A stretch of 64,000 bases of DNA. Origin: Onthophagus taurus. Lineage: Eukaryota > Arthropoda > Insecta > Coleoptera > Scarabaeidae. The notes below the pieces were generated by a model. It searched no databases. It was not told the DNA's origin and worked only from the letters and a program-made list of their open reading frames with translations. The position numbers and the translations under genes are program-made. Location of the stretch: NCBI RefSeq assembly GCF_036711975.1, contig NC_091966.1, positions 21,397,501-21,461,500 on the forward strand. Direction: 5' to 3'. Below, one piece after another: positions 36,311 through 59,456 of the stretch (its first letter is position 1; every line of letters starts with the position of its first letter).

Positions 36311-39300
36311 GCGAAAACGCGATATTATGACGTTATACGCCGTTCTGAGCCATGTTTGAACTTTCTATCACTTTTGGTTCCGATAATTCTGCTGACCATA
36401 TTTGTGATATTTAGGAGCCAAATGACATGTTGAACCATGTTGGAGATAAAAAACAAAATGTGCCCAAAACGTGATATTATGACGTTATACGCCGTTCTGA
36501 GCCATGTTTGAACTTTCTATCACTTTTGGTTCCGATAATTCTGCTGACCATATTTGTGTTATTCAGGCGCCAAATGACATGATGAACCATGTTGGAGATA
36601 AAAAACGAAATGTGCCCAAAACGTGATATTATGACGTTATACGCCGTTCTGAGCCATGTTTGAACTTTCTATCACTTTTGGTTCCGATAATTCTGCTGAC
36701 CATATTTGTGTTATTCAGGCGCCAAATGACATGTTGAACCATGTTGGAGATAAAAAACAAAATGTGCCCACAACGTGATATTATGACGTTATACGCCGTT
36801 CTGAGCCATGTTTGAACTTTCTATCACTTTTGGTTCCGATAATTCTGCTGACCATATTTGTGATATTCAGGCGCCAAATAACATGTTGGAGCAAGTCGGA
36901 GATAAAAAACAAAATGTGCCCACAACGTGATATTATGACGTTATACGCCGTTCTGAGCCATGTTTGAACTTTCTATCACTTTTGGTTCCGATAATTCTGC
37001 TGACCATATTTGTGTTATTCAGGCGCCAAATGACATGTTGAACCATGTTGGAGATAAAAAACAAAATGTGCCCACAACGTGATATTATGACGTTATACGC
37101 CGTTCTGAGCCATGTTTGAACTTTCTATCACTTTTGGTTCCGATAATTCTGCTGACCATATTTGTGTTATTCAGGCGCCAAATGACATGATGAACCATGT
37201 TGGAGATAAAAAACAAAATGTGCCCAAAACGTGATATTATGACGTTATACGCCGTTCTGAGCCATGTTTGAACTTTCTATCACTTTTGGTTCCGATAATT
37301 CTGCTGACCATATTTGTGTTATTCAGGCGCCAAATGACATGTTGGAGCAAGTTGGAGATAAAAAACAAAATGTGCCCAAAACGTGATATTATGACGTTAT
37401 ACGCCGTTCTGAGCCATGTTTGAACTTTCTATCACTTTTGGTTCCGATAATTCTGCTGACCATATTTGTGATATTTAGGAGCCAAATGACATGTTGAACC
37501 ATGTTGGAGATAAAAAACAAAATGTGCCCAAAACGTGATATTAAGACGTTATACGCCGTTCTGAGCCATGTTTGAACTTTCTATCACTTTTGGTTCCGAT
37601 AATTCTGCTGACCATATTTGTGATATTCAGGTGCCAAATAACATGTTGGAGCAAGTCGGAGATAAAAAACAAAATGTGCCCAAAACGTGATATTATGACG
37701 TTATACGCCGTTCTGAGCCATGTTTGAACTTTCTATCACTTTTGGTTCCGATAATTCTGCTGACCATATTTGTGATATTCAGGCGCCAAATGACATGTTG
37801 AACCATGTTGGAGATAAAAAACAAAATGTGCCCACAACGTGATATTATGACGTTATACGCCGTTCTGAGCCATGTTTGAACTTTCTATCACTTTTGGTTC
37901 CGATAATTCTGCTGACCATATTTGTGATATTCAGGCGCCAAATAACATGTTGGAGCTAGTCGGAGATAAAAAACAAAATGTGCCCAAAACGTGATATTAT
38001 GACGTTATACGCCGTTCTGAGCCATGTTTGAACTTTCTATCACTTTTGGTTCCGATAATTCTGCTGACCATATTTGTGATATTTAGGAGCCAAATGACAT
38101 GTTGAACCATGTTGGAGATAAAAAACAAAATGTGCCCAAAACGTGATATTATGACGTTATACGCCGTTCTGAGACAAGTTTGAACTTTCTATCACTTTTG
38201 GTTCCGATAATTCTGTTGACCATATTTGTGATATTCAGGCGCCAAATGACATGTTGGAGCATGTTGGAGATAAAAAACAAAATGTGCCCAAAACGTGATA
38301 TTATGACGTTATACGCCGTTCTGAGACAAGTTTGAACTTTCTATCACTTTTGGTTCCGATAATTCTGTTGACCATATTTGTGATATTCAGGCGCCAAATG
38401 ACATGTTGGAGCATGTTGGAGATAAAAAACAAAATGTGAACAAAACGTGATATTATGACGTTATACGCCGTTCTGAGACATGTTTGAACTTTCTATCACT
38501 TTTGGTTCCGATAATTCTGTTGACCATATTTGTGATATTCAGGCGCCAAATGACATGTTGGAGCATGTTGGAGATAAAAAACAAAATGTGCCCAAAACGT
38601 TATATTATGACGTTATACGCCGTTCTGAGACATGTTTGAACTTTCTATCACTTTTGGTTCCAATAATTCTGTTGACCATATTTGTGATATTCAGACGCCA
38701 AATGACATCTTTGAGCATGTTGGAGATAAAAAACAAAATGTGCCCAAAACGTTATATTATGACGTTATACGCCGTTCTGAGACATGTTTGAACATTCTAT
38801 CACTTTTGCTTCCGATAATTCTGTTGACCATATTTGTGATATTCAGACGCCAAATGACATCTTTGAGCATGTTGGAGATAAAAAACAAAATGTGCCCAAA
38901 ACGTTATATTATGACGTTATACGCCGTTCTGAGACATGTTTGAACTTTCTATCACTTTTGGTTCCGATAATTCTGTTGACCATATTTGTGATATTCAGGC
39001 GCCAAATGACATGTTGGAGCATGTTGGAGATAAAAAACAAAATGTGCCCAAAACGTGATATTATGACGTTATACGCCGTTCTGAGACATGTTTGAACTTT
39101 CTATCACTTTTGGTTCCGATAATTCTGTTGACCATATTTGTGATATTCAGACGCCAAATGACATCTTTGAGCATGTTGGAGATAAAAAACAAAATGTGCC
39201 CAAAACGTTATATTATGACGTTATACGCCGTTCTGAGACATGTTTGAACTTTCTATCACTTTTGGTTCCGATAATTCTGTTGACTATATTTTTGATATTC

Positions 39301-42300
39301 AGACGCCAAATGACATCTTTGAGCATGTTGGAGATAAAAAACAAAATTTATATTAATAAACAATATAAACAAACGTTATATTATGACGTTATACGCCGTT
39401 CTGAGACATGTTTGAACTTTCTATCACTTTTGGTTCCGATAATTCTGCTGACCATATTTGTGTTATTCAGGCGCCAAATGACATGATGAACCATGTTGGA
39501 GATAAAAAACGAAATGTGCCCAAAATGTGATATTATGACGTTATACGCCGTTCTGAGCCATGTTTGAACTTTCTATCACTTTTGGTTCCGATAATTCTGC
39601 TGACCATATTTGTGATATTTAGGAGCCAAATGACATGTTGAACCATGTTGGAGATAAAAAACAAAATGTGCCCAAAACGTAATATTATGACGTTATACGC
39701 CGTTCTGAGCCATGTTTGAACTTTCTATCACTTTTGGTTCCGATAATTCTGCTGACCATATTTGTGTTATTCAGTCGCCAAATGACATGTTGAACCATGT
39801 TGGAGATAAAAAATAAAATGTGCCCAAAACGTGATATTATGACGTTATACGCCGTTCTGAGCCATGTTTGAACTTTCTATCACTTTTGGTTCCGATAATT
39901 CTGCTGACCATATTTGTGATATTTAGGAGCCAAATGACATGTTGAACCATGTTGGAGATAAAAAACAAAATGTGCCCAAAACGTAATATTATGACGTTAT
40001 ACGCCGTTCTGAGCCATGTTTGAACTTTCTATCACTTTTGGTTCCGATAATTCTGCTGACCATATTTGTGTTATTCAGTCGCCAAATGACATGTTGAACC
40101 ATGTTGGAGATAAAAAATAAAATGTGCCCAAAACGTGATATTATGACGTTATACGCCGTTCTGAGCCATGTTTGAACTTTCTATCACTTTTGGTTCCGTT
40201 AATTCTGCTGACCATATTTGTGTTATTCAGGCGCCAAATGACATGTTGAACCATGTTGGAGATAAAAAACAAAATGTGCCCAAAACGTGATATTATGACG
40301 TTATACGCCGTTCTGAGCCATGTTTGAACTTTCTATCACTTTTGGTTCCGATAATTCTGCTGACCATATTTGTGTTATTCAGGCGCCAAATGACATGATG
40401 AACCATGTTGGAGATAAAAAACAAAATATGCCCAAAACGTTATATTATGACGTTAGACGCCGTTCTGAGCCATGTTTGAACTTTCTATCACTTTTGGTTC
40501 CGATAATTCTGCTGACCATATTTGTGTTATTCAGGCGCCAAATGACATGATGAACCATGTTGGAGATAAAAAACAAAATATGCCCAAAACGTTATATTAT
40601 GACGTTAGACGCCGTTCTGAGCCATGTTTGAACTTTCTATCACTTTTGGTTCCGATAATTCTGCTGACCATATTTGTGATATTTAGGAGCCAAATGACAT
40701 GTTGAACCATGTTGGAGATAAAAAACAAAATGTGCCCAAAGCGTGATATTATGACGTTATACGCCGTTCTGAGCCATGTTTGAACTTTCTATCACTTTTG
40801 GTTCCGATAATTCTGCTGACCATATTTGTGATATTTAGGAGCCAAATGACATGTTGAACCATGTTGGAGATAAAAAACAAAATGTGCCCAAAACGTGATA
40901 TTGTGACGTTATACGCCGTTCTGAGCCATGTTTGAACTTTCTATCACTTTTGGTTCCTATAATTCTGCTAACCATATTTGTGATATTCAGGCGCCAAATA
41001 ACATGTTGGAGCAAGTCGGAGATAAAAAACAAAATGTGCCCAAAACGTGATATTATTACGTTATACGCCGTTCTGAGCCATGTTTGAACTTTCTATCACT
41101 TTTGGTTCCGATAATTCTGCTGACCATATTTGTGTTATTCAGGCGCCAAATGACATGTTGGAGCAAGTTGGAGATAAAAAACAAATTGTGCCCAAAACGT
41201 GATATTATGACGTTATACGCCGTTCTGAGCCATGTTTGAACTTTCTATCACTTTTGGTTCCGATAATTCTGCTGACCATATTTGTGATTTTTAGGAGCCA
41301 AATGACATGTTGAACCATGTTGGAGATAAAAAACAAAATGTGCCCAAAACGTGATATTATGACGTTATACGCCGTTCTGAGCCATGTTTGAACTTTCTAT
41401 CACTTTTGGTTCCGATAATTCTGCTGACCATATTTGTGATATTCAGGTGCCAAATAACATGTTGGAGCAAGTCGGAGATAAAAAACAAAATGTGCCCAAA
41501 ACGTGATATTATGACGTTATACGCCGTTCTGAGCCATGTTTGAACTTTCTATCACTTTTGGTTCCGATAATTCTGCTGACCATATTTGTGTTATTCAGGC
41601 GCCAAATGACATGATGAACCATGTTGGAGATAAAAAACAAAATGTGCCCAAAACGTAATATTATGACGTTATACGCCGTTCTACGCCATGTTTGAACTAT
41701 CTATCACTTTTGGTTCCGATAATTCTGCTGACCATATTTGTGATATTTTGGAGCCAAATGACATGTTGAACCATGTTGGAGATAAAAAACAAAATGTGCC
41801 CAAAACGTGATATTATGACGTTATACGCCGTTCTGAGCCATGTTTGAACTTTCTATCACTTTTGGTTCCGATAATTCTGCTGACCATATTTGTGATATTT
41901 AGGAGCCAAATGACATGTTGAACCATGTTGGAGATAAAAAACAAAATGTGCCCAAAACGTGATATTATGACGTTATACGCCGTTCTGAGCCATGTTTGAA
42001 CTTTCTATCACTTTTGGTTCCGATAATTCTGCTGACCATATTTGTGATATTCAGGTGCCAAATAACATGTTGGAGCAAGTCGGAGATAAAAAACAAAATG
42101 TGCCCAAAACGTGATATTATGACGTTATACGCCGTTCTGAGCCATGTTTGAACTTTCTATCACTTTTGGTTCCGATAATTCTGCTGACCATACTTGTGAT
42201 ATTCAGGTGCCAAATAACATGTTGGAGCAAGTCGGAGATAAAAAACAAAATGTGCCCAAAACGTGATATTATGACGTTATACGCCGTTCTGAGCCATGTT

Positions 42301-43340
42301 TGAACTTTCTATCACTTTTGGTTCCGATAATTCTGCTGACCATATTTGTGTTATTCAGTCGCCAAATGACATGTTGAACCATGTTGGAGATAAAAAATAA
42401 AATGTGCCCAAAACGTGATATTATGACGTTATACGCCGTTCTGAGCCATGTTTGAACTTTCTATCACTTTTGGTTCCGTTAATTCTGCTGACCATATTTG
42501 TGTTATTCAGGCGCCAAATGACATGTTGAACCATGTTTTAGATAAAAAACAAAATGTGCCCAAAACGTAATATTATGACGTTATACGCCGTTCTGAGCCA
42601 TGTTTGAACTTTCTATCACTTTTGGTTCCGATAATTCTGCTGACCATATTTGTGTTATTCAGGCGCCAAATGACATGATGAACCATGTTGGAGATAAAAA
42701 ACAAAATATGCCCAAAACGTTATATTATGACGTTAGACGCCGTTCTGAGCCATGTTTGAACTTTCTATCACTTTTGGTTCCGATAATTCTGCTGACCATA
42801 TTTGTGATATTTAGGAGCCAAATGACATGTTGAACCATGTTGGAGATAAAAAACAAAATGTGCCCAAAGCGTGATATTATGACGTTATACGCCGTTCTGA
42901 GCCATGTTTGAACTTTCTATCACTTTTGGTTCCGGTAATTCTGTCGACCATATATGTGATATTCAGGGTCCAAATGAGATATTGGAGCATGTTGGAGATA
43001 AAAAACAAAATGTGCCCAAAACGTTATATTATGACGTTATACGCCGTTCTGAGACATGTTTGAACTTTCTATCACTTTTGGTTCCGATAATTCTGTTGAC
43101 CATATTTGTGATATTCAGGCGCCAAATGACATCTTGGAACATGTTGGAGATAAAAAACAAAATGTGCCCAAAACGTGATATTATGACGTTATACGCCGTT
43201 ATGAGCCATGTTTGAACTTTCTATCACTTTTGGTTCCGATAATTCTGTTGACCATATTTGTGATATTCAGGCGCCAAATGACATCTTGGAGCATGTTGGA
43301 GATAAAAAACAATATGTGCCCAAAACGTGATATTATGACG

Positions 43341-43345
<5 letters not shown>
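36311..43345. repeat. Satellite macro-copy 3, truncated by the mitochondrial segment
   Basis: It opens with the GCGAAAACGCG monomer at 36311 and reaches the 168-bp monomer at about 39345. That distance, 3034 bp, is the same as in macro-copy 1. GGTAATTCTGTCGACC follows at about 42935. The copy then stops abruptly within a monomer at 43345, where (TA)n and mitochondrial control-region sequence begin. It therefore appears cut off rather than naturally ended. Confidence 0.65.
39338..39378. repeat. Satellite monomer with 16-bp AT-rich expansion (copy 3)
   Basis: This is the third copy of the 168-bp monomer variant, with the same replaced segment. Its distance from the opening monomer of its macro-copy is 3034 bp, equal to that in macro-copy 1. 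Confidence 0.85.
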
Positions 43346-43374
<29 letters not shown>

Positions 43375-43501
43375 AATTTATTATATATATATATATTTAA
43401 ATATAATAAATTTATTATATATATATAAATAAATATAATAAATATATATATATATATATTAAATTTATTATATATATATAAAATAAATATAGCTATTATA
43501 A
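43346..43501. repeat. (TA)n and AT-palindromic tract at the satellite/mitochondrial junction
   Basis: A TA dinucleotide run starts directly at the broken satellite monomer. It continues as repeated AATAAATTTATT palindromes separated by TA runs. Similar TA runs occur at about 44035-44062 inside the mitochondrial control-region duplication, so this tract is probably control-region sequence expanded at the junction. No gene is visible. Confidence 0.7.
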
Positions 43502-44005
43502 TAAATTTATTATATATAAATATAAGAAATTTATTATATATATATAGATCATATAATGTTTCTTTTTCTTTTTCTAGTATCCATTTATTTTTTTATGTAT
43601 AAAAATTTTAATTATTAATCCTCACATATTAGGTTAATATTATTAATTAATAATATTTATTAATTAATAAATTCTCCTTATATATATTCATTAAATATTT
43701 ATTGAAAAAAAAAAAATTTTTTTTTTTTCATTTCTACACATTTTACCATAATACCAAAAATCAAAAAAAAAAAAAATCCGGAAAAAAAAATTTTTCAATT
43801 TTTACTGATACACATTTTTCCATAATACTAAAAATTAAAATTTCTAAATTTTTCATTTTTTTTTATTTTTAATTTAACTGAAAAATATAAATAAAAATTA
43901 AATTAAAGTAATTTATATTTAATTTTTTATAAATAAAATTTTAATTTTTATTATATATTTAAATATTTATATTAAAATTTAATTTAAATATAAAATAAAT
44001 AAATT
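43502..44005. repeat. AT-rich control-region duplication, copy 1
   Basis: This block of about 505 bp is repeated almost base for base at 44064-44568 (for example GATCATATAATGTTTC at 43547 and 44109). It includes an A-run followed by a T-run that could fold on itself (about 43703-43728). Near its end it carries CTGAAAAATATAAATAAAAATTAAATTAAAG-like sequence that also occurs in the repeats right of rrnS. That shared sequence marks it as mitochondrial control region and not satellite. Confidence 0.8.
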
Positions 44006-44027
44006 TTTTTTTTTTTTTTTTATTAAC

Positions 44028-44063
<36 letters not shown>

Positions 44064-44065
<2 letters not shown>

Positions 44066-44568
44066 AATTTATTATATATAAATATAAGAAATTTATTATA
44101 TATATATAGATCATATAATGTTTCTTTTTCTTTTTCTAGTATCCATTTATTTTTTTATGTATAAAAATTTTAATTATTAATCCTCACATATTAGGTTAAT
44201 ATTATTAATTAATAATATTTATTAATTAATAAATTCTCCTTATATATATTCATTAAATATTTATTGAAAAAAAAAAAAATTTTTTTTTTTTCATTTCTAC
44301 ACATTTTACCATAATACCAAAAATCAAAAAAAAAAAAAATCCGGAAAAAAAAATTTTTCAATTTTTACTGATACACATTTTTCCATAATACTAAAAATTA
44401 AAATTTCTAAATTTTTCATTTTTTTTTATTTTTAATTTAACTGAAAAATATAAATAAAAATTAAATTAAAGTAATTTATATTTAATTTTTTATAAATAAA
44501 ATTTTAATTTTTATTATATATTTAAATATTTATATTAAAATTTAATTTAAATATAAAATAAATAAATT
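44064..44568. repeat. AT-rich control-region duplication, copy 2
   Basis: This direct repeat of 43502-44005 differs by small homopolymer changes. A TA run of about 26 bp lies between the two copies. The copy ends at a short C-rich spacer (about 44569-44585, CCCCAACCCCCTCCCC), after which the 194-bp repeats start. Confidence 0.8.
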
Positions 44569-44588
44569 CCCCAACCCCCTCCCCATTA

Positions 44589-45590
44589 GAGTAATTTATA
44601 TTAATAAAATCAAGTTAAATCCCCATTAACTTTATTTACCCAATATAAATTATTTTAATTTAATCTTTATTTATATTTTTCAGTTAAATTTAAATTTGAT
44701 TTTATTACCTAACTGAAAACTTCCAATATAAGTAATAATATAAATTATTTTAGCTTTGATTTAATATAAAGAAGCTAAATTAGAGTAATTTATATTAATA
44801 AAATCAAGTTAAATCCCCATTAACTTTATTTACCCAATATAAATTATTTTAATTTAATCTTTATTTATATTTTTCAGTTAAATTTAAATTTGATTTTATT
44901 ACCTAACTGAAAACTTCCAATACAAGTAATAATATAAATTATTTTAGCTTTGATTTAATATAAAGAAGCTAAATTAGAGTAATTTATATTAATAAAATCA
45001 AGTTAAATCCCCATTAACTTTATTTACCCAATATAAATTATTTTAATTTAATCTTTATTTATATTTTTCAGTTAAATTTAAATTTGATTTTATTACCTAA
45101 CTGAAAACTTCCAATATAAGTAATAATATAAATTATTTTAGCTTTGATTTAATATAAAGAAGCTAAATTAGAGTAATTTATATTAATAAAATCAAGTTAA
45201 ATCCCCATTAACTTTATTTACCCAATATAAATTATTTTAATTTAATCTTTATTTATATTTTTCAGTTAAATTTAAATTTGATTTTATTACCTAACTGAAA
45301 ACTTCCAATATAAGTAATAATATAAATTATTTTAGCTTTGATTTAATATAAAGAAGCTAAATTAGAGTAATTTATATTAATAAAATCAAGTTAAATCCCC
45401 ATTAACTTTATTTACCCAATATAAATTATTTTAATTTAATCTTTATTTATATTTTTCAGTTAAATTTAAATTTGATTTTATTACCTAACTGAAAACTTCC
45501 AATATAAGTAATAATATAAATTATTTTAGCTTTGATTTAATATAAAGAAGCTAAATTAGAGTAATTTATATTAATAAAATCAAGTTAATA
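44589..45590. repeat. 194-bp control-region tandem repeats, trnI side (5.2 copies)
   Basis: AATCAAGTTAA recurs at 44608, 44802, 44996, 45190, 45384 and 45578, a constant 194-bp spacing. Each unit has two modules. Module A runs from GTAATTTATATTAATAAAATC to AAATTATTTTAATTT and has the small hairpin AGTTAA...TTAACT around a C-run. Module B contains TTTTCAGTTAAATTTAAATTTG and TAACTGAAAAC. Module B here is the reverse complement of module B in the array right of rrnS, while module A has the same orientation in both. The copies are nearly identical (one substitution noted near 44923). This is the control region adjoining trnI. Confidence 0.9.
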
Positions 45591-45711
45591 AAAACTTAAC
45601 TTAATTTTATTAACATAAATTATTCTAACTTTAATTTAATATAAAGAAACTAAATTAAAATTTAATTTCATTATTTTATTAAGAAAGTTAAATAATTATA
45701 GTAACAAAATA
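45591..45711. other. Control-region remainder before trnI
   Basis: This is a non-coding AT-rich stretch between the last 194-bp repeat and trnI. It includes degraded repeat sequence (AACATAAATTATTCTAACTTT, AAAGAAACTAAATT) and no open frame of note. By position it is the end of the mitochondrial control region. Confidence 0.7.
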
Positions 45712-45778
45712 AATGAAGTGTCTGATAAAAGAATTATTTTGATAGAATAAAAAATGTAAATTAAATTTACCTTCATTA
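45712..45778 (+). tRNA. trnI: tRNA-Ile (GAT)
   Basis: The acceptor stem AATGAAG pairs with CTTCATT at the other end, and the anticodon loop contains GAT (TTTTGATAG). It closely matches the conserved insect trnI and stands first in the I-Q-M cluster next to the control region. Confidence 0.92.
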
Positions 45779-45781
45779 AAA

Positions 45782-45850
45782 TTATAATTAATAGAATTAA
45801 ACTATTTCTTTAAATATCAAAAATTTATGTACATCTTATACTAAACTATA
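45782..45850 (-). tRNA. trnQ: tRNA-Gln (TTG)
   Basis: On the minus strand the acceptor halves TATAGTT and AATTATA pair with one G-T wobble, and the anticodon loop holds TTG (CAA on the plus strand within ATCAAAAATT). It is located between trnI and trnM on the opposite strand, the usual insect arrangement. Confidence 0.85.
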
Positions 45851-45918
45851 AAAAGATAAGCTAATTAAACTACTGGGTTCATACCCCAATCATAAAGGTT
45901 CTAATCCTTTTCTTTTTA
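45850..45918 (+). tRNA. trnM: tRNA-Met (CAT)
   Basis: The acceptor stem AAAAAGA pairs with TCTTTTT. The anticodon arm CTGGGTTCATACCCCA carries CAT at 45880-45882. It ends directly at the nad2 start. Confidence 0.92.
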
Positions 45919-46316
45919 ATCTCCCTACATAAAATTATTTTTATATTTACTTTAATATTTGGAACTATTATCTCTATTTCATCATATTCTTGAATAAGAA
46001 TATGACTAGGATTAGAAATCAATCTCTTAGCCATTATTCCTTTAATAAGAAACACTAAAAATTCTATAGCTTCTGAAGCAGCAATAAAATATTTTATTAC
46101 ACAAACTCTTGCATCCATAATTCTATTAATATCTTTAATTATTATATCTATTAATTTTAACCCAATTATTGATTCTTCTTTAACTTTAATTTATACATCA
46201 GCTTTATTTATTAAAATAGGAGCTGCCCCATTTCATTTTTGATTTCCAGAAATTATTCAAGGATTATCATGAACTAATTCTTTTATTATACTTACATGAC
46301 AAAAAATTGCCCCTAT

Positions 46317-46326
46317 AACATTAATT
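46317..46326. repeat. Target-site duplication, left copy (AACATTAATT)
   Basis: This 10-bp sequence is repeated exactly at 48442-48451 and brackets the retrotransposon. It is part of the original nad2 reading frame (codons for T-L-I). The last TT adjoins the poly-T run, so its right edge is ambiguous by a base or two. Confidence 0.85.
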
Positions 46327-46705
46327 TTTTTTTTTTTTTTTTTTTTTTTGCGCAGAGGAGGGAAAAATGCTTTTACGCACTCCGGCCTACTGTTGGCGCC
46401 TAAAGGTGTTCGTAAGGTGTGTTTCGGCCGGGAGTCTGGGACTCACAGTGTCTACCCAGTAAAAAACCCCCCTCTCTTCTCCGGTACCACCCTTCTGGGT
46501 ATTTCTTCGGAGGGATCATCGTTTAGGACGTCGTCTTTGGTTTTAGCTCCACCGGGTGCCTCCACCCCCGTCCTCTTACTGTAGGTCTCTCACCGCGCTG
46601 TCATCTCGGTACATCACCATCCCGTTGCAGGTAAGTATTATAGAATACATCAAAAACTCCATTTACTTTTTGTTTCACACATTAACATAAAGACTTACGT
46701 CGCTA

Positions 46706-46740
46706 GGAGGGGGCTCTTCATCCTTGCGGGTTCCCCCTCC
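46706..46740 (-). other. Predicted hairpin 1 in retrotransposon 3' UTR
   Basis: GGAGGGGG at 46706-46713 is perfectly complementary to CCCCCTCC at 46733-46740, with a 19-nt loop. It is the first of three related hairpins. Confidence 0.7.
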
Positions 46741-46930
46741 TCTATCCCATCCGGTGTCGTAGGGAGCATGTGTCCACCAAACAGGGTCGCGATGGGGGCT
46801 GTCATCGGGTATCCTCCGTCGCTGTCATCGGTGGTCGCATCGGTCTCAGGGAAGTATAGGGAACAAAATAAAAACAAAAGGTCCCTCACTCTTTTTGAAA
46901 GAACTCTTAATTTCAGACTTACGTGGCTGA

Positions 46931-46964
46931 GGAGGGGCCCTTGCACCCATAGGGTGACCCCTCC
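46931..46964 (-). other. Predicted hairpin 2 in retrotransposon 3' UTR
   Basis: GGAGGGG at 46931-46937 pairs with CCCCTCC at 46958-46964. The inner CACCC and GGGTG can also pair. Compared with hairpins 1 and 3 both arms are shortened together, so pairing is kept although the sequence differs. Confidence 0.65.
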
Positions 46965-47105
46965 ATCTACTCCTTCCCAATGGCCTCACCCAGGGTTGTG
47001 GTCACGGTGTATCATCGTCTCGATCCAGGTAAGCATTTTAAGAACACACAAGAATTACTCTTTAACTTTTTGTTTCAGATTTTAGCATTAGGACTTACGG
47101 CGCTA

Positions 47106-47140
47106 GGAGGGGGCTCTTCATCCATACGGGTTCCCCCTCC
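47106..47140 (-). other. Predicted hairpin 3 in retrotransposon 3' UTR
   Basis: GGAGGGGG at 47106-47113 pairs with CCCCCTCC at 47133-47140. The sequence is nearly identical to hairpin 1, with two changes in the loop (TTG to ATA). Confidence 0.7.
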
Positions 47141-47192
47141 GCCACCTTCTTTTCGTCCACTGGTAACGAGGAGAGCATTCCGCCACCAACTT

Positions 47193-48443
47193 TCACTCTT
47201 CAGCTCGTACGGCAGCGTCCATTTCCCTTTTTTTGGTCTTTAGGACCGTGGCAATAAAGGTATTTATTTTGTCCCACGCTTCTTCTGTGCTCATCATCAG
47301 TGTGACGATAGTTTCTGGCGCTATGGGGCCCACGACACCTATCAATCTTTCCCTTAATTCCCCCCATCTTACACAGCGGAAAAAAGTGTGCTCGGCGTCG
47401 TCGGTAGCCGAGTCCGAATAAAGACACGCGGGGCTCCCTGTTTTGCCTATGGTATATAGGAACTTATTGAAGTAGCCGTGGCCGGAGAGGAATTGGGTAA
47501 GGAAGTAGTTGACCTCCCCGTAGCTTCTGTCTTTCCATGACGCGATGTCAGCTATTAAGCGCGCCGTCCATCGTCCCCTCGTCTCTCGATCCCATCTATG
47601 CTGCCACTCTTGGTGCGTTCGGGCCCTATTCCGGTCTCTTTCCTGAGCTCCTCCCTTCGAGGACCAGTTGCGTCTTCTTTCCAGGGCCATGAGGTCTATC
47701 GGGATTATGCCGGCCACCACGAGGACCGCCGGGCCAGACACGGTTCTGTAGGCGTTGGCAACTCGGAGTGCCCCCCTGCGCTGCACAGCCGCCAAGCGTC
47801 TCCACTTATCGTTGGTAATTGATTTTGACCATGCCTCGCTTCCGTATAGCATAATTGCATGGGCGGTCTCCATCAATATCCGGCGTTTTGTTGTCGTTGG
47901 ACCACCAATGTTGGCCATTAACCGCGCCAGTGATGCTACAACTCCCGCGGCCCTGCCGCACACCAACTGAATCTGTTGCCCAAAGGTGACTTTGTTGTCT
48001 ATAACGACTCCGAGGTATTTAACGGCCTTTCCAGCAGTGATTTCCGTATCGTTGATCGTAAGAGGGATTTGCACCGGGATCCTACGTCTCGTGAGGAGGA
48101 CAATCTCGGTCTTTTCGGCTGCTAGTGTCAGTCCCCGATCAGACGTCCAGGAATGTATCCTTCGCATGACTCTGTTGATTTTTATTTGCAACTCACGCGG
48201 TTCTCTACCTAAAACGATGGCGGCGAGGTCGTCGGCGTATCCTACCAAATAGGCACCTTCTGGCATAGGCATCCTCAGTACCCCATCGTAAAAGATGTTC
48301 CACAAGACTGGGCCCAGGACGGAGCCCTGGGCCACGCCGCATGTCATCTTTCGGCTTTGTTTTCCTTCACTGGTATTATACACGATAGTTCTATCCCGCA
48401 AGTAGTCATCGAGCATTCTCATGAGATATTCCGGCGTAGAGAA
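47193..48443 (-). CDS. ORF2 C-terminal fragment: reverse transcriptase and Cys-His motif
   Basis: This is an open frame of about 416 codons. The first half is a reverse transcriptase missing its N-terminal motifs. It has GVAQGSVLGPVLWNIFYDG (around residues 37-55) and the catalytic YADDLAAIV (about residues 70-78), so two of the three catalytic aspartates are present. The thumb region follows, with KYLGVVIDNKVTF. The C-terminal region has the GHGYFNKFL and AEHTFFRC pattern typical of R1/Jockey-type ORF2 proteins, a zinc-binding Cys-His motif. Its second cysteine appears replaced by serine (CLYS). The endonuclease domain is absent because of the 5' truncation. An apparent ATG at 48444-48446 belongs to the duplicated nad2 target and is not the element's own start. 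The frame is otherwise uninterrupted, which suggests a recent copy. Confidence 0.88.
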   Translation of the reverse strand, partial: FSTPEYLMRMLDDYLRDRTIVYNTSEGKQSRKMTCGVAQGSVLGPVLWNIFYDGVLRMPMPEGAYLVGYADDLAAIVLGREPRELQIKINRVMRRIHSWTSDRGLTLAAEKTEIVLLTRRRIPVQIPLTINDTEITAGKAVKYLGVVIDNKVTFGQQIQLVCGRAAGVVASLARLMANIGGPTTTKRRILMETAHAIMLYGSEAWSKSITNDKWRRLAAVQRRGALRVANAYRTVSGPAVLVVAGIIPIDLMALERRRNWSSKGGAQERDRNRARTHQEWQHRWDRETRGRWTARLIADIASWKDRSYGEVNYFLTQFLSGHGYFNKFLYTIGKTGSPACLYSDSATDDAEHTFFRCVRWGELRERLIGVVGPIAPETIVTLMMSTEEAWDKINTFIATVLKTKKREMDAAVRAEE

Positions 48444-48451
48444 CATTAATT
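48442..48451. repeat. Target-site duplication, right copy (AACATTAATT)
   Basis: This is an exact copy of 46317-46326 at the 5' truncated end of the element. The nad2 frame resumes through it. Confidence 0.88.
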
Positions 48452-49049
48452 AGATATTCAAATTTTAATAATATTAATTTTCTTATATTTATCGTTATCA
48501 TAAGAAGAATAATTAGAGGAATTATAGGAATAAACCAAACAAATATAAAAAAAATTTTAGCATACTCATCTATTAATCATATTAGATGAATATTAACATC
48601 CATATTATTTTTTGAAAAAATTTGAATATACTATTTCATTATTTATTCAATTATTTCATTAAATATTATTGTCATTCTAAAAAAATTAAACATTTCCCAT
48701 ATAAACCAACTATTCTCATCTTTAAATAATAATCCTTTAATTAAATTTTTCTTTATATTAAACTTTATATCCTTAGGAGGATTACCCCCATTTTTAGGAT
48801 TTTTACCAAAATGATTAACAATCCAAATTTTAATTAAAATACAATTATTCTCCTTATCTTTTATTATTATTATCATAACATTAATTACTTTATTTTTCTA
48901 TATACGAATTATTACTTTAGGAATAATTATAAATACAAATAATACTAATTTAAAAAATTCTTATATAAAACAATTTAATAATATCTATTTATTTAATTTT
49001 ATTATTCTAATAAGACTTCTTTTAATCACAATTTCATTCAATATATTCT

Positions 49050-49118
49050 AAGGATTTAAGTTATAAACAAACTAGAAACCTTCAAAGTTTCAAAAAAAGA
49101 GAGGTTCTTTAAGCCTTA
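49050..49118 (+). tRNA. trnW: tRNA-Trp (TCA)
   Basis: AAGGATT at the 5' end pairs with AAGCCTT at the 3' end with one mismatch. The anticodon TCA is at 49082-49084 and reads UGA and UGG as Trp. It overlaps trnC on the other strand by about 9 nt, as in other insects. Confidence 0.9.
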
Positions 49119-49178
49119 AAATTATAAATTTATCTTTAAATTTGCAATTTAATATCTCTTAATTAGACTATAAAGCTT
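49110..49178 (-). tRNA. trnC: tRNA-Cys (GCA)
   Basis: The minus-strand acceptor AAGCTTT pairs with AAGGCTT, and the anticodon loop TTGCAAA carries GCA. It overlaps the 3' end of trnW. Confidence 0.88.
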
Positions 49179-49183
49179 ATAAA

Positions 49184-49249
49184 TAGTAAAAGAAATTATT
49201 TTTCGTAAATAAATTTACAATTTATCGCCTAAAACTCGGCCATTTTACT
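49184..49249 (-). tRNA. trnY: tRNA-Tyr (GTA)
   Basis: The minus-strand acceptor AGTAAAA pairs with TTTTACT, and GTA lies in the anticodon loop (TTGTAAA). It is between trnC and cox1, as in the ancestral order. Confidence 0.88.
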
Positions 49250-49254
49250 TTTTA

Positions 49255-50791
<1,537 letters not shown>

Positions 50792-50796
<5 letters not shown>

Positions 50797-50856
50797 TATG
50801 GCAGAATAGTGCAATGAATTTAAGCTTCATATATAAAGTTAAACCTTTTTTTAGAA
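50792..50856 (+). tRNA. trnL2: tRNA-Leu2 (TAA)
   Basis: TCTAATA pairs with TTTTAGA with one T-T mismatch. It has the conserved TGGCAGA box and the anticodon TAA at 50821-50823. Located between cox1 and cox2, the arthropod hexapod/crustacean signature position. Confidence 0.9.
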
Positions 50857-51538
50857 ATAGCTACTTGAAAAAGAATTACTTTACAAGATGCTGCCTCACC
50901 ACTAATAGAACAACTAATTATATTCCATAATCATGCATTATTAATTTTATTAATGATTACAGTTATAGTTGGTTATCTAATAAGAACTTTATTTTTTAAC
51001 AAATTTAATTATCGATTTCTATTAGAAAATCAAATAATTGAAATCATTTGAACTATTGCTCCTGCTGTAACATTAATTTTTATTGCTTTACCCTCTTTAC
51101 AACTTTTATATCTATTAGACGAAATTAATAACCCAATAATTTCCCTAAAATCAATTGGACATCAATGATACTGATCCTATGAATATTCTGATTTCAAAAA
51201 ATTAGAATTTGATTCTTATATAATCCCTATTAATGAAATAAAATTAAATAGATTTCGATTATTAGATGTTGATAATCGAACAATTTTACCTTACAATTCT
51301 CAAATTCGTATACTAATTACAGCCGCAGATGTAATTCACTCCTGAACTATTCCAGCTTTAAGAGTAAAAATTGATGCTACACCTGGTCGATTAAATCAAA
51401 TTAGATTTTTAATAAATCGAACAGGATTATTTTTTGGTCAATGTTCTGAAATTTGTGGAGCAAATCATAGATTTATGCCTATTGTTGTAGAAAGAATTCC
51501 TATAAAATATTTTATTAAATGAATAAATTCTAATAATT
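50857..51538 (+). CDS. cox2: Cytochrome c oxidase subunit II
   Basis: This complex IV subunit has two N-terminal membrane helices and a periplasm-side CuA domain that accepts electrons from cytochrome c. It begins at ATA 50857, directly after trnL2 ([15 protein letters not shown]), and has 227 codons. Visible motifs are GHQWYWSYEYSDF (aromatic electron-entry region), DVIHSWTIPAL and [17 protein letters not shown] (the CuA ligands Cys, Cys, His, Met). The frame ends with an incomplete T at 51538, completed to TAA by polyadenylation in mitochondria, and trnK starts at the next base. No lesion is seen. Confidence 0.95.
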
Positions 51539-51610
51539 CATTAGATGACTGAAACGCAAGTATTGGTCTCTTAAACCATATAATAGTAAATTAGCAATTA
51601 CTTCTAATGA
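51539..51610 (+). tRNA. trnK: tRNA-Lys (CTT)
   Basis: CATTAGA pairs with TCTAATG, and the anticodon loop CTCTTAA gives CTT, the usual insect form. Confidence 0.92.
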
Positions 51611-51677
51611 AAAATTTAGTTAAATTTATAACATTAGTTTGTCAAACTAAAATAATTTCTATTAGAAATAATTTTTA
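51610..51677 (+). tRNA. trnD: tRNA-Asp (GTC)
   Basis: AAAAATT pairs with AATTTTT. The anticodon GTC is at 51641-51643. It overlaps the last base of trnK and ends immediately before atp8. Confidence 0.9.
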
Positions 51678-51833
51678 ATTCCACAAATAGCCCCATTAAG
51701 TTGATTAACCCTAATGATTTATTTTTCCTTAATTTTCATAATTTTTAATACTATAAACTATTATTCATTTAATTATAATATTAAATTTTTCTCTTTTAAA
51801 AAAAAAAAAAATAATTTAAATTGAAAATGATAA
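51678..51833 (+). CDS. atp8: ATP synthase subunit 8
   Basis: This is a small single-helix protein of the ATP synthase Fo stator, 51 residues. It starts at ATT 51678, directly after trnD, with IPQMAPLSWLTLMIYF, the conserved PQM...W start of insect ATP8. One hydrophobic segment (about residues 8-25) is followed by a basic, lysine-rich tail with W-K-W at the end. TAA is at 51831-51833. The 13-A run near 51798-51811 keeps the frame. It overlaps atp6 by 7 nt (ATGATAA), which is standard for the pair. Confidence 0.93.
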
Positions 51834-52501
51834 CAAATTTATTTTCTTCTTTTGATCCAGGAACTTATCTAAGAACATCTTTAAATTGAATAAGAACATT
51901 TTTAGGATTACTATTTTTACCTTCTATATTCTGACTAATTCCTTCACGTTATAGATATTTATGAAATAAAATTATTATTACTCTTCATAATGAATTTAAA
52001 ATTTTATTAGGAAATAATTCTATCAAAGGAAGAACACTAATCTTTATTTCTATTTTTTCTATAATCATATTTAATAATTTTTTAGGATTATTCCCATATA
52101 TTTTTACTAGATCTAGTCATATAGTAATAACTCTTACTCTAGCTTTACCAATATGATTAAGTTTTATAATTTATGGATGAATTAATAATACTATACATAT
52201 ATTTGCTCATTTAGTTCCCCAAGGAACTCCCCCTGTTTTAATACCTTTTATAGTTTGTATTGAAACTATTAGTAATATTATTCGACCAGGAACTTTAGCT
52301 GTCCGATTAGCAGCTAATATAATTGCTGGACACTTATTATTAACACTTTTAGGTAATACAGGATCTTCATTAAATTTTATTTTAATTAATTTTTTAATTA
52401 TTACTCAATTTTTATTACTTTTACTTGAATCAGCAGTTTCAATTATTCAATCATATGTTTTTGCTGTATTAACAACTCTTTACTCTAGAGAAGTAAATTA
52501 A
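51827..52501 (+). CDS. atp6: ATP synthase subunit 6 (subunit a)
   Basis: This is the proton-channel subunit of ATP synthase, an inner-membrane protein with several helices, 224 residues. It starts at ATG 51827 ([15 protein letters not shown]). The conserved helix [16 protein letters not shown] contains the essential arginine that faces the c-ring. The protein ends [23 protein letters not shown] with TAA at 52499-52501. The frame is intact. The gene is followed after 12 nt by cox3. Confidence 0.95.
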
Positions 52502-52513
52502 ATAATTTATTAT

Positions 52514-53298
52514 ATGTCAAAAAAAAATCATCCATTTCATTTAGTAGATGTTAGACCTTGACCTTTAATAGGAGCTCTAGGAGCTATAATTACTATAATT
52601 GGTATTATTAAATGATTCCATTTCTTTAATAATAATTTATTTCTATTAGGAACATTAATTACAATTATAATTATATTCCAATGATGACGTGATATTGTTC
52701 GGGAAGGAACTTTCCAAGGTTTACATACTTATATCGTAACTATAGGACTTCGATGAGGAATAATTTTATTTATTACATCAGAAATTTTTTTTTTATTTCA
52801 TTTTTTTGAGGATTTTTCCACAGAAGTCTATCTCCTTCTATTGAAATTGGTATAATATGACCCCCTAAAGGAATCATACCCTTTAATCCCTTACAAATTC
52901 CTCTTTTAAATACTTTAATTTTATTAACTTCAGGCCTTACAGTAACATGAGCTCATCATAGATTAATTGAAAATAATTATAATCAAGCTCTACAAAGTTT
53001 AATTTTAACTGTAATTTTAGGAATTTATTTTACAATCTTACAAGCTTATGAATATATCGAAGCTCCTTTCACTATTGCTGATAGAGTTTATGGATCTTCA
53101 TTTTTCATAGCTACAGGATTTCATGGAATTCATGTAATTATTGGAACAACATTCCTACTAACTTGTTTAATTCGTCATTATTTTAACCATTTTTCCTGTA
53201 TTCATCACTTTGGATTCGAAGCAGCTGCATGATACTGACATTTTGTAGACGTAGTCTGACTATTTCTATATATTTCTATTTACTGATGAGGTAGATAA
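52514..53298 (+). pseudogene. cox3: Cytochrome c oxidase subunit III with one-base frameshift
   Basis: This is the third core subunit of complex IV, with seven membrane helices. It starts at ATG 52514 (MSKKNHPFHLVDVSPWPL) and runs well through WWRDIVREGTFQGLHT to the T-run at 52785-52794. There the run has 10 T where 11 (or 8) are needed. Reading on in the same frame loses the conserved sequence. One base over, the expected FFHSSLSPSIEIGMMWPP follows, then [10 protein letters not shown] and YWHFVDVVWLFL, ending TAA at 53296-53298. The total is 785 nt, one short of 262 codons. The single missing T could be a real lesion of a nuclear copy or a homopolymer error of sequencing. Confidence 0.92.
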
Positions 53299-53308
53299 TT
53301 CCTTATAA

Positions 53309-53374
53309 ATTTATATAGTATAATAATTATAATTGATTTCCAATCAAAAGATCTAATAAAATTTAGTATAAATA
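53309..53374 (+). tRNA. trnG: tRNA-Gly (TCC)
   Basis: ATTTATA pairs with TATAAAT, and the anticodon TCC is at 53339-53341. It is located between cox3 and nad3. Confidence 0.9.
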
Positions 53375-53728
53375 ATTAAAATAATTTTTTTCATAAGATC
53401 AATAATTTTTATTATTTGCAATATTTTAATTATTCTTTCTTCTATTATTTCAAAAAAAAGTTTTTTTGACCGAGAAAAAAGATCCCCATTTGAATGTGGA
53501 TTTGACCCTAAAAGATCAGCTCGAACCCCATTTTCATTACATTTTTTTTTAATTGCAGTAATTTTCTTAATTTTTGATGTTGAAATTACATTATTAATTC
53601 CTATTATTATAACTTTAAAAATTTCTAATATAATTAATTTTAATTTCATTATTTTTTTTTTTATTTTTATTCTTTTATTTGGACTTTATTATGAATGAAA
53701 TCAAGGAGCTTTAACTTGAACAAAATAA
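53375..53728 (+). CDS. nad3: NADH dehydrogenase subunit 3
   Basis: This is a small complex I membrane subunit of 117 residues. It starts at ATT 53375, directly after trnG. The conserved loop FECGFDP, with the redox-sensitive cysteine of the active/deactive switch, lies at about residues 43-49. It is followed by [20 protein letters not shown] and the C-terminal YYEWNQGALTWTK. TAA is at 53726-53728. The long T-runs near 53541 and 53651 keep the frame. Confidence 0.95.
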
Positions 53729-53733
53729 TCTTT

Positions 53734-53803
53734 AGGGTAATAGTTAATTATAACATTTAATTTGCATTTAAAAAGTATTGATAATTTAAATCAATTTACC
53801 TTA
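53734..53803 (+). tRNA. trnA: tRNA-Ala (TGC)
   Basis: AGGGTAA pairs with TTACCTT, including one G-T pair. The anticodon TGC is at 53763-53765. It is first in the A-R-N-S1-E-F cluster. Confidence 0.9.
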
Positions 53804-53812
53804 TTTATAATT

Positions 53813-53880
53813 AAATAAGAAACAAAATATTGTATTTAGTTTCGACCTAAAATTTTGATGAAAAATATCATCCTTATTTA
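53813..53880 (+). tRNA. trnR: tRNA-Arg (TCG)
   Basis: AAATAAG pairs with CTTATTT, and the anticodon TCG is at 53842-53844. Confidence 0.9.
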
Positions 53881-53908
53881 AATTAAATTTTAATATAAAT
53901 ATTTTAAA

Positions 53909-53973
53909 TTAATTGAAGCCAAATTAGAGGCATATCACTGTTAATGATAACATTGGATTATATCCCAATTAAA
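53909..53973 (+). tRNA. trnN: tRNA-Asn (GTT)
   Basis: TTAATTG pairs with CAATTAA. The anticodon GTT is at 53940-53942. A 28-nt AT-rich spacer separates it from trnR. Confidence 0.9.
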
Positions 53974-54041
53974 AAGATAGGGAACTCAAGAATAAGCTTC
54001 TAACTTAATTCTTTAGCAGTGAAAATCTGTTAATATCTTTA
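53973..54041 (+). tRNA. trnS1: tRNA-Ser1 (AGN), anticodon TCT
   Basis: AAAGATA pairs with TATCTTT. The anticodon loop CTTCTAA gives TCT where most insects have GCT. The D-arm is reduced, as usual for this tRNA. It overlaps the last base of trnN. Confidence 0.85.
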
Positions 54042-54046
54042 AAAAA

Positions 54047-54112
54047 AATTTATTAGTTTAATAAAAACATTACATTTTCAATGTAAAAATAAATTAATTT
54101 ATTTATAAATTA
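54047..54112 (+). tRNA. trnE: tRNA-Glu (TTC)
   Basis: AATTTAT pairs with ATAAATT, and the anticodon TTC is at 54077-54079. Confidence 0.88.
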
Positions 54113-54176
54113 CTTAAAAATAAAAATTATTACCCTAATATCTTCAATATTATACTCTTATTTAAGCTATTTAAGT
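54111..54176 (-). tRNA. trnF: tRNA-Phe (GAA)
   Basis: On the minus strand ACTTAAA pairs with TTTAAGT, and the anticodon GAA lies in ATTGAAG. It overlaps trnE by about 2 nt and provides the 3' boundary of nad5. Confidence 0.88.
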
Positions 54177-55890
54177 AAATTAATATTATTAAAAATATAA
54201 TTCACATAATAGTTAATAATAAAAAAATTTTTAAATTATTATTATGTAAAAATTGCATATATATAGATATATTTTTAATATTTAAATAAATATTTTGAGC
54301 TCCCAAAAATTCAGATCAACCTTGATCAATATTTTTATAAATTTGATTTCCCATAATTAAAGGATAAAAATTAACACCAAAAGTTCTTAAATAAGGTATA
54401 TTTCATATTGAAGAAAAAAATAAACTTCTATTTAAATTATTTAAAGAATTTAAAGAATAATTCAATTTTAATTTAGAAAATTCATATCCTAAAAATATTC
54501 CCATTAAAATAACAAATACAACTATTATCTTTATTAAAAAAGATAAACAAATAAAATATGGGATTGGAAATATTAACCATATTAATATTCTACCGCCAAA
54601 AATCACAAATATAATTAAACCAGATATTCCTTTTAATATGATAAAATTATTATTATCAGAAATTAAATGTAAAGAAAAATGATTAAAATTTCCAATAATT
54701 ACATAATAAATTAAACGAAAAGTATAAGAAACAGTTAACCCTGTAGAAATAAAAAAAATTAAATAAATATAAATATTTAAATAATTTATTGAAACAACTT
54801 CTAAAATTAAATCCTTAGAATAAAATCCTGATAAAAATGGCAATCCACACAAAGCTATATTAGAAATAATGAAAAAAGAACATGTTAAAGGTATTAAATT
54901 AATCAAATTTCCTATAAAACGAATATCCTGACAATTTCTTAAATTATGAATTATACATCCCCCACATATAAATAACAATGCCTTAAATAATGCATGAGTT
55001 AATAAATGAAAAAAAGCCAATTTATATTCCCCTAAAGATAAAATACTCATTATTAATCCTAATTGACTTAAAGTTGATAAAGCAATAATTTTTTTTAAAT
55101 CAAACTCATAATTAGCCCCTAATCCTGCTATAAATATTGTTATTCTTCCAATAAATAATATAAATATTATACAATTATAATTTAATGATATATTAAAACG
55201 AATTAATAAATAAACCCCCGCAGTTACTAATGTAGAAGAATGAACTAATGAAGAAACTGGAGTAGGGGCAGCTATCGCAGCAGGTAACCAAGAAGAAAAT
55301 GGAATTTGAGCTGATTTAGTTATAGCTGCAATTATTACAAATAAACCAATAATAAAAATTTCATCTCTTTTTATATAATCAACATAAAAATAATAATTAA
55401 ATCCCCCATAATTTAATATTCAAGCAATTGATAATAATAAAAATACATCCCCAATTCGATTACTTAATGCTGTAATTATCCCTGCATTATAAGATTTTAC
55501 ATTTTGATAATAAATTACTAAACAATAAGAAACTAATCCTAATCCATCTCATCCTAGTAAAATTCTAATTAAATTTGGACTAATAATTAACAATATTATT
55601 GATAAAACAAATATACAAACTAATATAATAAAACGATTAATATTTAAATCACCTTCTATATATCTATTTCTATAATAAATTACTATAGAAGAAATAAATA
55701 AAACAAATCTTATAAATAATAAAGATATTCAATCTAATAATAAAGTTATTAAAATTTGACAAGAATTAATATTAATTAATTGAAATTCTAATATCAATCT
55801 ATAATCTAATACTATAAAATTTAATCTTAAAAAAAAAAATAAAATTCTAATTAATAAAAAAAATACATAATAAATTAAACAAATTGAAAT
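54177..55890 (-). CDS. nad5: NADH dehydrogenase subunit 5
   Basis: This is one of the proton-pumping, antiporter-like subunits of complex I, with many membrane helices, 571 codons. It starts at ATT 55890, directly after trnH ([13 protein letters not shown]). Conserved segments are [58 protein letters not shown] and [15 protein letters not shown]. The whole frame was followed and contains no internal stop under the mitochondrial code; TGA tryptophans (for example in the MWNMPYL segment near 54400) would be stops in the nucleus. It ends with an incomplete T at 54177, completed at the trnF boundary. Confidence 0.95.
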
Positions 55891-55955
55891 TATTTAAAAC
55901 AAATAATTTGTATCTTTGACACCACAAATCAAAATTTTTAATAAACTATTTAAAT
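55891..55955 (-). tRNA. trnH: tRNA-His (GTG)
   Basis: The minus-strand acceptor halves ATTTAAA and TTTAAAT pair. The anticodon GTG lies in TTGTGGT (CAC at 55923-55925 on the plus strand). It is located between nad4 and nad5. Confidence 0.88.
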
Positions 55956-57292
55956 TAAATTCATAAACAAAAAATTTCTCTTTTTAAAATTAAAATATTT
56001 AAAGGTAATCAATGCAACATTAATAATAAATATTCTCGTACTATACCAGTAAAAAAAGAAAATAAACCTGAATACACTATCCCATGTTGAGTATAAGAAT
56101 ATAAATATAAAGAATAAACAGCTCTAAAGAAAGATAAAAATATTAATATTAATATTCTTAATCTATTTCATCTAACTAATCTATTAATTAATATAATTTC
56201 TCCTAATAAATTTAATGAAGGGGGGGCTGCTATATTTGATCTTCTTAATAAAAATCACCATAATCTTATTCTAGGAATCAAATTAATTATTCCTTTATTT
56301 AAATATATTCTTCGTCTAGAAAATCGTTCATAATTAATATTTGCTAAACAAAATAATCCTGATGAACATAAACCATGAGCTAATATTATTACTAAAGCCC
56401 CACATATGCCTCAATAAGTTAAAGTTATAATTCCCCCCAATACCATACCTATATGAGCCACTGAAGAATAAGCAATTAAAGATTTAATATCAATTTGACG
56501 AATACAAATTAAAGAAACTAATAACCCCCCATATAATCTAATTAAAATAAATATAATATTAATTTTTACACCAATTCTTAAAAAAATTGATATTAAACGT
56601 ATTAACCCATACCCCCCTAATTTTAATAAAACACCTGCTAAAATTATTGAACCAGAAACAGGAGCTTCAACATGAGCCTTAGGTAATCATAAATGAACTA
56701 AATATATTGGTATTTTAACAAAAAAAGCCATATTCATACATATATATATATAAATATTTCTAACTATATTTCTTATAAAATAGAAATCTAAATTAAAAAA
56801 TTTCTCATAATAATAAAAAATAGAAATTATTATAGGTAAAGATACTAACAAAGTATAAAATAATAAATAAATTCCCGCCTGTAATCGTTCAGGTTGATAC
56901 CCCCAACCTACAATTAAAATTAATGTAGGAATTAATCTTATTTCAAAAAATAAATAAAATAAAAATAAATTCATAGAAGAAAAAGCTATATATAAAAAAA
57001 ATATTAAACATAATAATACAAAAAAAAATATATTTATAAAATAATTTTTATAATTTAATGACTCTCTAGCTATAATTATTAAAATACAAATTCATAAACT
57101 TAATAAAATTATACAATATGATAGTAAATCACAACCTAAAAAATATCTTAAATTTTTAAATAAATAATTATAACTATTAACAAATATAAATAAAAAAAAT
57201 ATTAAAAAATATATACATTGATTTAATCAAAATCTTTTCAATTTAAAACTCATAGGGATCATAAAAATTATTATTAAACTAAATTTTATCAT
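55955..57292 (-). CDS. nad4: NADH dehydrogenase subunit 4
   Basis: This is an antiporter-like proton-pumping subunit of complex I, 445 residues. It starts at ATG 57290-57292 within the ATGATAA overlap with nad4L. Conserved parts are [16 protein letters not shown], the helix [20 protein letters not shown] with the key Glu and Lys, [11 protein letters not shown] and [12 protein letters not shown]. The frame is open throughout. TAA is at 55955-55957, overlapping trnH by 1 nt. The position, upstream of nad5 on the same strand, is standard. Confidence 0.95.
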
Positions 57293-57576
57293 AAAATTCT
57301 AAATGTATTAAAATAATCATTTCCATGTGTACGAACTATAGAAACTAAAATCCCTAATCCCAAAGCACCCTCACATACTCTTATAGTTAAAAAAACTATT
57401 CTAAAAAAATATTCATAATAAAAAAATGATAAATAAATAAATAAATTAAAAAATAAACTTAAAATAATAAATTCTAATCTTAATAATATTAATAATAAAT
57501 GTTTACGTTTAATTACAAATGAAATTAAACCTGAAAAATATATAAATACTGAAAAATATAAATAAAAAATTAACAT
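57286..57576 (-). CDS. nad4L: NADH dehydrogenase subunit 4L
   Basis: This is a small complex I membrane subunit with three helices, 96 residues. ATG is at 57576. It contains the conserved [11 protein letters not shown] segment (around residues 69-79) and ends with W followed by TAA at 57286-57288. It overlaps nad4 by 7 nt; the pair is normally translated from one transcript. No lesion is seen. Confidence 0.94.
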
Positions 57577-57579
57577 TAA

Positions 57580-57645
57580 GTTTTAATAATTTATAAAAAA
57601 TATTGGTCTTGTAAATCAAAAAAAAGAATTTTTTCTTTTAAAACT
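57580..57645 (+). tRNA. trnT: tRNA-Thr (TGT)
   Basis: GTTTTAA pairs with TTAAAAC. The anticodon TGT is at 57610-57612. Confidence 0.9.
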
Positions 57646-57714
57646 TCAGAAAAAGAAAACTTATATTTCCATCTTTAATCTCCAAAATTAAAATTTTATT
57701 TAAACTATTTTCTG
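57646..57714 (-). tRNA. trnP: tRNA-Pro (TGG)
   Basis: On the minus strand CAGAAAA pairs with TTTTCTG, and the anticodon TGG lies in TTTGGAG. It directly adjoins trnT on the other strand. Confidence 0.9.
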
Positions 57715-57721
57715 TTCTGAT

Positions 57722-58219: not shown

Positions 58220-58222
58220 ATA

Positions 58223-59364: not shown

Positions 59365-59368
59365 ACTA

Positions 59369-59436: not shown

Positions 59437-59456
59437 ATTATACTAAATTTTATTCA

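Follow-up and report, generated by a model that had tools for sequence, protein, structure and literature searches.

A LINE-type retrotransposon in the nad2 gene of a complete mitochondrial genome embedded in nuclear satellite DNA of Onthophagus taurus

Results

Mitochondrial sequence within a 152-bp satellite array

The window, i.e. the whole stretch of 64,000 nucleotides analysed here, corresponds to C1:21397501-21461500 and lies within a contig of 44.24 Mb, in an assembly of 290.8 Mb in 33 contigs. It begins with an array of a 152-bp satellite, followed by mitochondrial sequence that runs past the end of the window into the adjoining stretch, L009, where the satellite restarts at position 6327 (Table 1). 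Nuclear DNA was therefore joined to mitochondrial sequence at both ends, and no N was found within the 104 kb read around the locus, junctions included. When 20 stretches of 1 kb were sampled between 20.0 and 22.5 Mb of C1, the satellite was present in 15, one of them partial, and absent from five, one of which (at 21.30 Mb) was located inside the array. The array thus probably extends over more than 1 Mb and is interrupted at least once.

Table 1. Features of the locus, in window numbering unless stated otherwise.
Feature	Position	Strand	Remarks
152-bp satellite array	1..43345	.	TRF: 284.9 copies, 95% matches
Left copy of 38-bp duplication flanking the NUMT	43308..43345	+	Identical 38-mer
NUMT: complete mitochondrial genome, 26,981 bp	43346..64000, continuing to L009:6326 (70326 in window numbering)	+	
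Control-region array, 194-bp repeats, 5.2 copies	44585..45588	+	Inverted vs long array after 62633
nad2, 5' part, 136 codons	45919..46326	+	Pfam PF00361 profile positions 1-133 of 294, E=5.1e-18
Left copy of 10-bp target-site duplication AACATTAATT	46317..46326	+	
5'-truncated non-LTR (LINE-type) retrotransposon copy, 2,115 bp	46327..48441	-	100% identity to C11 copy
Poly(A) tail, 23 T read on + strand	46327..46349	-	C11 copy likewise 23
Element 3' untranslated region, with internal repeat	46350..47192	-	
ORF2, 3' part, broken off within reverse transcriptase domain	47193..48441	-	418-aa frame, RVT_1 E=2.9e-15
Right copy of 10-bp target-site duplication AACATTAATT	48442..48451	+	
nad2, 3' part, 200 codons including stop	48452..49051	+	PF00361 profile positions 148-294 of 294, E=3.4e-22
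cox1, open	49255..50796	+	Sole full-length match in assembly
cox3, two frames, one frameshift in T homopolymer	52514..53298	+	PF00510 positions 1-98 and 85-258
cytb, frame lost near 59150 in A homopolymer	58226..59364	+	
Control-region array, 194-bp repeats	62633..64000, on to ~5493 in L009	+	~35 copies in all
Right copy of 38-bp duplication	70327-70364 (= L009:6327-6364)		Identical 38-mer

Mitochondrial gene content and reading frames

The mitochondrial sequence contained 13 protein genes, an LSU rRNA and a long control region, with rrnS assumed from its place. ARAGORN, in mitochondrial mode, made 24 calls covering 22 mitochondrial tRNA identities, the two additional tRNA-Ser calls being likely spurious, and the tRNA order was what we take to be the ancestral insect order. 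In an Rfam scan, the only matches were one tRNA and a portion of the LSU rRNA.

No internal stop was present in 11 frames or frame parts totalling 10,155 bp, a count that leaves out atp8 and nad4L, both of which looked open, as well as the parts of cox3 and cytb located after their frameshifts. In cytb, the C-terminal part resumed in another frame, with a stop at 59362-59364. The two frameshifts may correspond to NUMT decay or, both being in homopolymers, to consensus errors. Since 3.7% of single substitutions in the 10,155 bp would give a stop, the absence of stops places the neutral divergence of the mitochondrial sequence below about 0.8%, a bound that derives from stop counts.

Both ends of the mitochondrial sequence fell within the control region and were alike over 666-700 bp (99.4%). 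A similar unit was repeated inside the left end (43377-44005 and 43947-44568), so that a molecule opened within tandem control-region units explains this likeness just as well as a copy extending beyond one full turn of the circle. The control region also contained tandem units of about 570 bp, and was long (some 10 kb) and partly palindromic. Elsewhere in the assembly, at C7:29281475-29287368, a more diverged NUMT of the 194-bp control-region array was observed, with 93-95% identity to the array in the window.

A duplicated 38-mer and uninterrupted copies of the broken site

The 38-mer found on both sides of the mitochondrial sequence is a rare variant of the satellite monomer, with six occurrences in 77,019 bp (about 507 monomers), both junctions included. 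The other four occurrences, at 7715, 14705 and 34478 in the window and at 75343 beyond it, were uninterrupted and were considered to be empty sites; in all four, the 30 bases upstream were those of the left flank and the 53 bases downstream those of the right flank. The pre-insertion site is thus recognisable, in four copies of the same array that are paralogous rather than allelic.

The flanks were compared with these sites over 700 bases, without gaps. The left flank showed no mismatch at 14705 or 34478 and five at 75343, and the first 175 bases of the right flank were exact at all three; the site at 7715 was out of register on both sides. Over the full 700 bases, the right flank differed in register from the sites at 14705, 34478 and 75343 by 27, 27 and 25 mismatches, respectively, and by only 15, 15 and 13 when compared one monomer further on, its best 700-base match elsewhere being at 71125 (12 mismatches). 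Short of proof, we take the drift past 175 bases to be the gain or loss of an array monomer. The two flanks were also joined; of 410 full-length alignments of this sequence, the best two covered 1,438 bp, ungapped, at 98.1%. One broken monomer with 38 bp duplicated is what genuine integration, with a staggered break filled in, would leave, and would be hard to obtain from a misjoin.

The insertion in nad2

The original prediction described a retrotransposon in nad2, antisense to the gene, with a poly(A) tail, a 5' end lost within the reverse transcriptase and a clean 10-bp target-site duplication, and every one of these features was recovered. The sequence AACATTAATT was present on both sides of the insert, next to 23 T on the + strand at the left junction, and the reverse transcriptase frame was located on the minus strand. 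The RVT_1 match was limited to profile positions 94-205 of 205, which indicates that the element is 5'-truncated within the reverse transcriptase; its 418-aa open frame extended into nad2 as far as 48449. The nad2 frame was also intact, as had been claimed: removal of the element and one copy of AACATTAATT gave 1,008 bp, an uninterrupted frame of 336 codons, the last of which is the stop. The two parts of the gene matched a common Pfam family, PF00361, at neighbouring profile positions. The G+C content of the insert (0.526 over 47001-48000) was above that of the surrounding mtDNA.

A chance origin of the AACATTAATT repeat was rejected, as identical 10-mers were obtained in only 9 of 200,000 random pair draws from the mitochondrial sequence at the locus. 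The AA at the start of the right copy was also present in the element on C11, and the TT at the end of the left copy merged into the T tail; the duplication could therefore be 2 bp shorter at either end.

The 3' untranslated region of the element contained an internal repeat (46589-46740 versus 46985-47140, 77.7% identical). By eye, motifs resembling the splice motifs GTAAGT and TTTCAG were observed on the antisense strand of this repeat region.

Relatives of the element in the assembly

The element was 100% identical to C11:6414812-6416928 over 2,117 aligned bp, of which 2 bp were the first AA of the right AACATTAATT copy, common to the C11 copy and to the duplication by chance or microhomology. 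Zero differences put the divergence of the two copies under about 0.14% (three over 2,117, the 95% bound). The C11 copy ran on 5' past the truncation point of the nad2 copy (about 5,980 bp versus 2,115). This full-length element, at C11:6414812-6420791, was located between 13-bp duplications (AAATGTAAACCTA) and contained two open ORFs, one of 561 aa with a CCHC knuckle, and one of 997 aa with endonuclease and reverse transcriptase, whose RVT_1 match was E=3.9e-31 versus 2.9e-15 in the nad2 insert. It adjoined a frame that, by eye, resembled an LTR-retrotransposon gag with zinc knuckles.

A further copy of the family, in L015, had (A)ATATATCGC(TT) on its two sides by visual inspection, a duplication of roughly 9-12 bp; when target-site duplications were looked for by eye around a copy in L014, none was seen. 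The length of the duplication thus varied, from 10 bp in nad2 to 13 bp at C11 and roughly 9-12 bp in L015. Together with the reverse transcriptase ORF, the poly(A) at the primed end and the 5' truncation, this is the pattern of a LINE that inserts by target-primed reverse transcription (TPRT). The identity of the nad2 copy to a longer copy with open ORFs suggests that it is a 5'-truncated product of nuclear TPRT.

The element may belong with the R1-like LINEs of arthropods. Its family resembles them in an ORF1 with a CCHC knuckle and an ORF2 with endonuclease and reverse transcriptase, and the nad2 copy in its poly(A) and 5' truncation. The family differs from them in being inserted at three unrelated sites (nad2, C11 and L015), which argues against rDNA specificity.

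The last 177 bp of the element (46337-46513) had many short, separate matches in the genome (approximately 75-95% identity) among the matches listed (40 of 110 candidates scored), many of which ended at query position 493 or 513-514. These matches correspond to truncated copies or to a short derivative family.

Other mitochondrial sequences in the assembly

In a search of the assembly for separate mtDNA, cox1 gave one full-length match, that of the locus itself, and three matches of less than 50 bp (4 of 4 candidates scored), and the 3' half of nad2 gave one full-length match and one of about 120 bp (2 of 2 candidates scored). As neither had a second full-length match, the assembly appears to be without an mtDNA either carrying or lacking the element. 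Against plasmid sequences, a tblastn with cox1 matched 929 records, those listed being bacterial oxidases. A search with the whole 18.4-kb stretch produced at least 80 matches (39 of 135 candidates scored); the window's own place was oddly absent, and the other mitochondrial-like matches were at most 96% identical, among the matches listed. Two of the NUMTs observed in the assembly (C16:883343-884167 and C3:23457004-23457533) were mosaics, in which many short pieces from different places of the mtDNA adjoined one another in both orientations.

Discussion

The location of the mitochondrial stretch within a 44.24-Mb contig, with satellite on both sides, the 38-bp satellite duplication at its ends and the empty sites in the same array together indicate that it is a NUMT. 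Nuclear residence, which the original prediction had preferred, is thereby strengthened; the outer duplication, the empty sites, the full-length relative of the element and the frameshifts go beyond that prediction. We consider it very probable that the locus results from two successive nuclear events, namely the capture of mtDNA in the satellite and, later, the insertion of a LINE into its nad2 gene.

In this course of events, a complete mtDNA molecule would have opened among its control-region tandem repeats and become trapped where the 152-bp satellite array had a staggered break, presumably during repair, with fill-in of the stagger giving the 38-bp duplication. Subsequently, a non-LTR element would have used its endonuclease/reverse transcriptase to nick the + strand of the nuclear nad2 at 5'-AACATTAATT/AGATATTC-3'. 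The junctions suggest that the T-ending 3' end (...AATT) then primed on the poly(A) of the element RNA, that reverse transcription ended early, inside the reverse transcriptase gene, and that a second-strand cut 10 bp away led to the AACATTAATT duplication. The template RNA would have been transcribed from a copy with few or no differences from the full-length C11 element. These steps are those of the general model of TPRT.

A real NUMT could also look intact and recent only because mtDNA reads, at polishing, had overwritten part of its interior in the assembly. This is unlikely, though it would agree with the zero stops in 10,155 bp, which limit neutral divergence to about 0.8%, set beside other mitochondrial-like matches that are at most 96% identical among those listed. 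The retrotransposon, its duplication and two frameshifts are still in the consensus, so that any overwriting was at most incomplete.

An assembly chimera, in which an mtDNA contig was misspliced into nuclear satellite and a retrotransposon was also misjoined into nad2, would explain why cox1 and the nad2 3' half have no separate mtDNA match in the assembly, why the 11 counted frames or frame parts are open, and why the right flank is out of register after 175 bases; satellite arrays are, moreover, prone to misassembly. We nevertheless regard it as very improbable: accident would have to account for both the 38-bp duplication and the 10-bp one nested inside it, together with a poly(A), one rare satellite variant is common to the left and right flanks, and the surroundings of the junctions contain no N.

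That capture preceded the LINE insertion is our inference, as the sequence by itself gives no relative date for insertion and transfer, and no element-free nad2 copy across the insertion point was present among the matches listed. These two points leave room for a LINE that inserted into real mtDNA inside mitochondria, the altered mtDNA then moving to the nucleus, which would mean that a nuclear-type retrotransposon had acted on animal mtDNA. Non-LTR elements target nuclear DNA, however, and an mtDNA lineage should not survive without nad2. Given also that the nad2 copy matches a full-length copy in the nucleus without a difference and that published NUMTs carry later retrotransposon insertions (as described in part of PMC4632043), such an origin is hardly credible. 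Most likely, therefore, real mitochondria were not invaded; the original prediction had kept this alternative in view, and no support for it was found here.

Since the interrupted nad2 is nuclear, its use as mtDNA in annotation or barcoding should be avoided. The locus, a complete NUMT that is nearly intact and has ends resolved to the base, is a good natural example for ordering and dating the capture of mtDNA in satellite DNA, and the outer 38-bp duplication and the inner retrotransposon with its full-length relative add to its value in this respect. It also points to a recently active LINE family. No literature on this locus was found in titles or the openings of abstracts, which does not imply its absence from print.

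The processes involved are known from other genomes. In rice, chromosome 12 reportedly contains a 190-kb mitochondrial fragment with four retrotransposons, according to the title of a 2005 report by Ueda; by that title, the likeness is that retrotransposons integrated after the NUMT, and the difference is that the host is a plant. In maize, the passages available of PMC4632043 describe a NUMT on chromosome 9L of B73 with recent Gypsy LTR retrotransposons inside, four of them with 5-6 bp duplications of mtDNA on their flanks; once the retrotransposons are taken out, the mtDNA is continuous. A recent retrotransposon with an mtDNA duplication inside a NUMT is what was observed here in nad2; however, the maize insertions are plant LTR elements with duplications of 5-6 bp, in contrast to a LINE-type element with a 10-bp duplication in mtDNA of animal type.

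The tarsier nucleus also contains an entire mitochondrial genome whose ends overlap; this complete-mtDNA NUMT of 17,866 nt overlaps in the 12S rRNA/D-loop and is 88% similar to mtDNA; in the part of the report available, the authors favour recombination between pre-existing numts as likely (PMC5059674). The NUMT described here differs in that it has a satellite duplication at its ends and is nearly intact. Among insects, the NUMTs of fig wasps are likewise fragmented by transposable elements, the longest being 12.1-14.9 kb in the four species named (PMC7600805, in part), but no complete mtDNA with a base-resolved LINE insertion was found in the portion of that report concerned. The available text of a survey of insect COI NUMTs (PMC10249859) has nothing on retrotransposons, 'transpos' occurring 0 times in its main text. 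Compared with these systems, the locus adds another case of processes already known, and an unusually clean and recent one.
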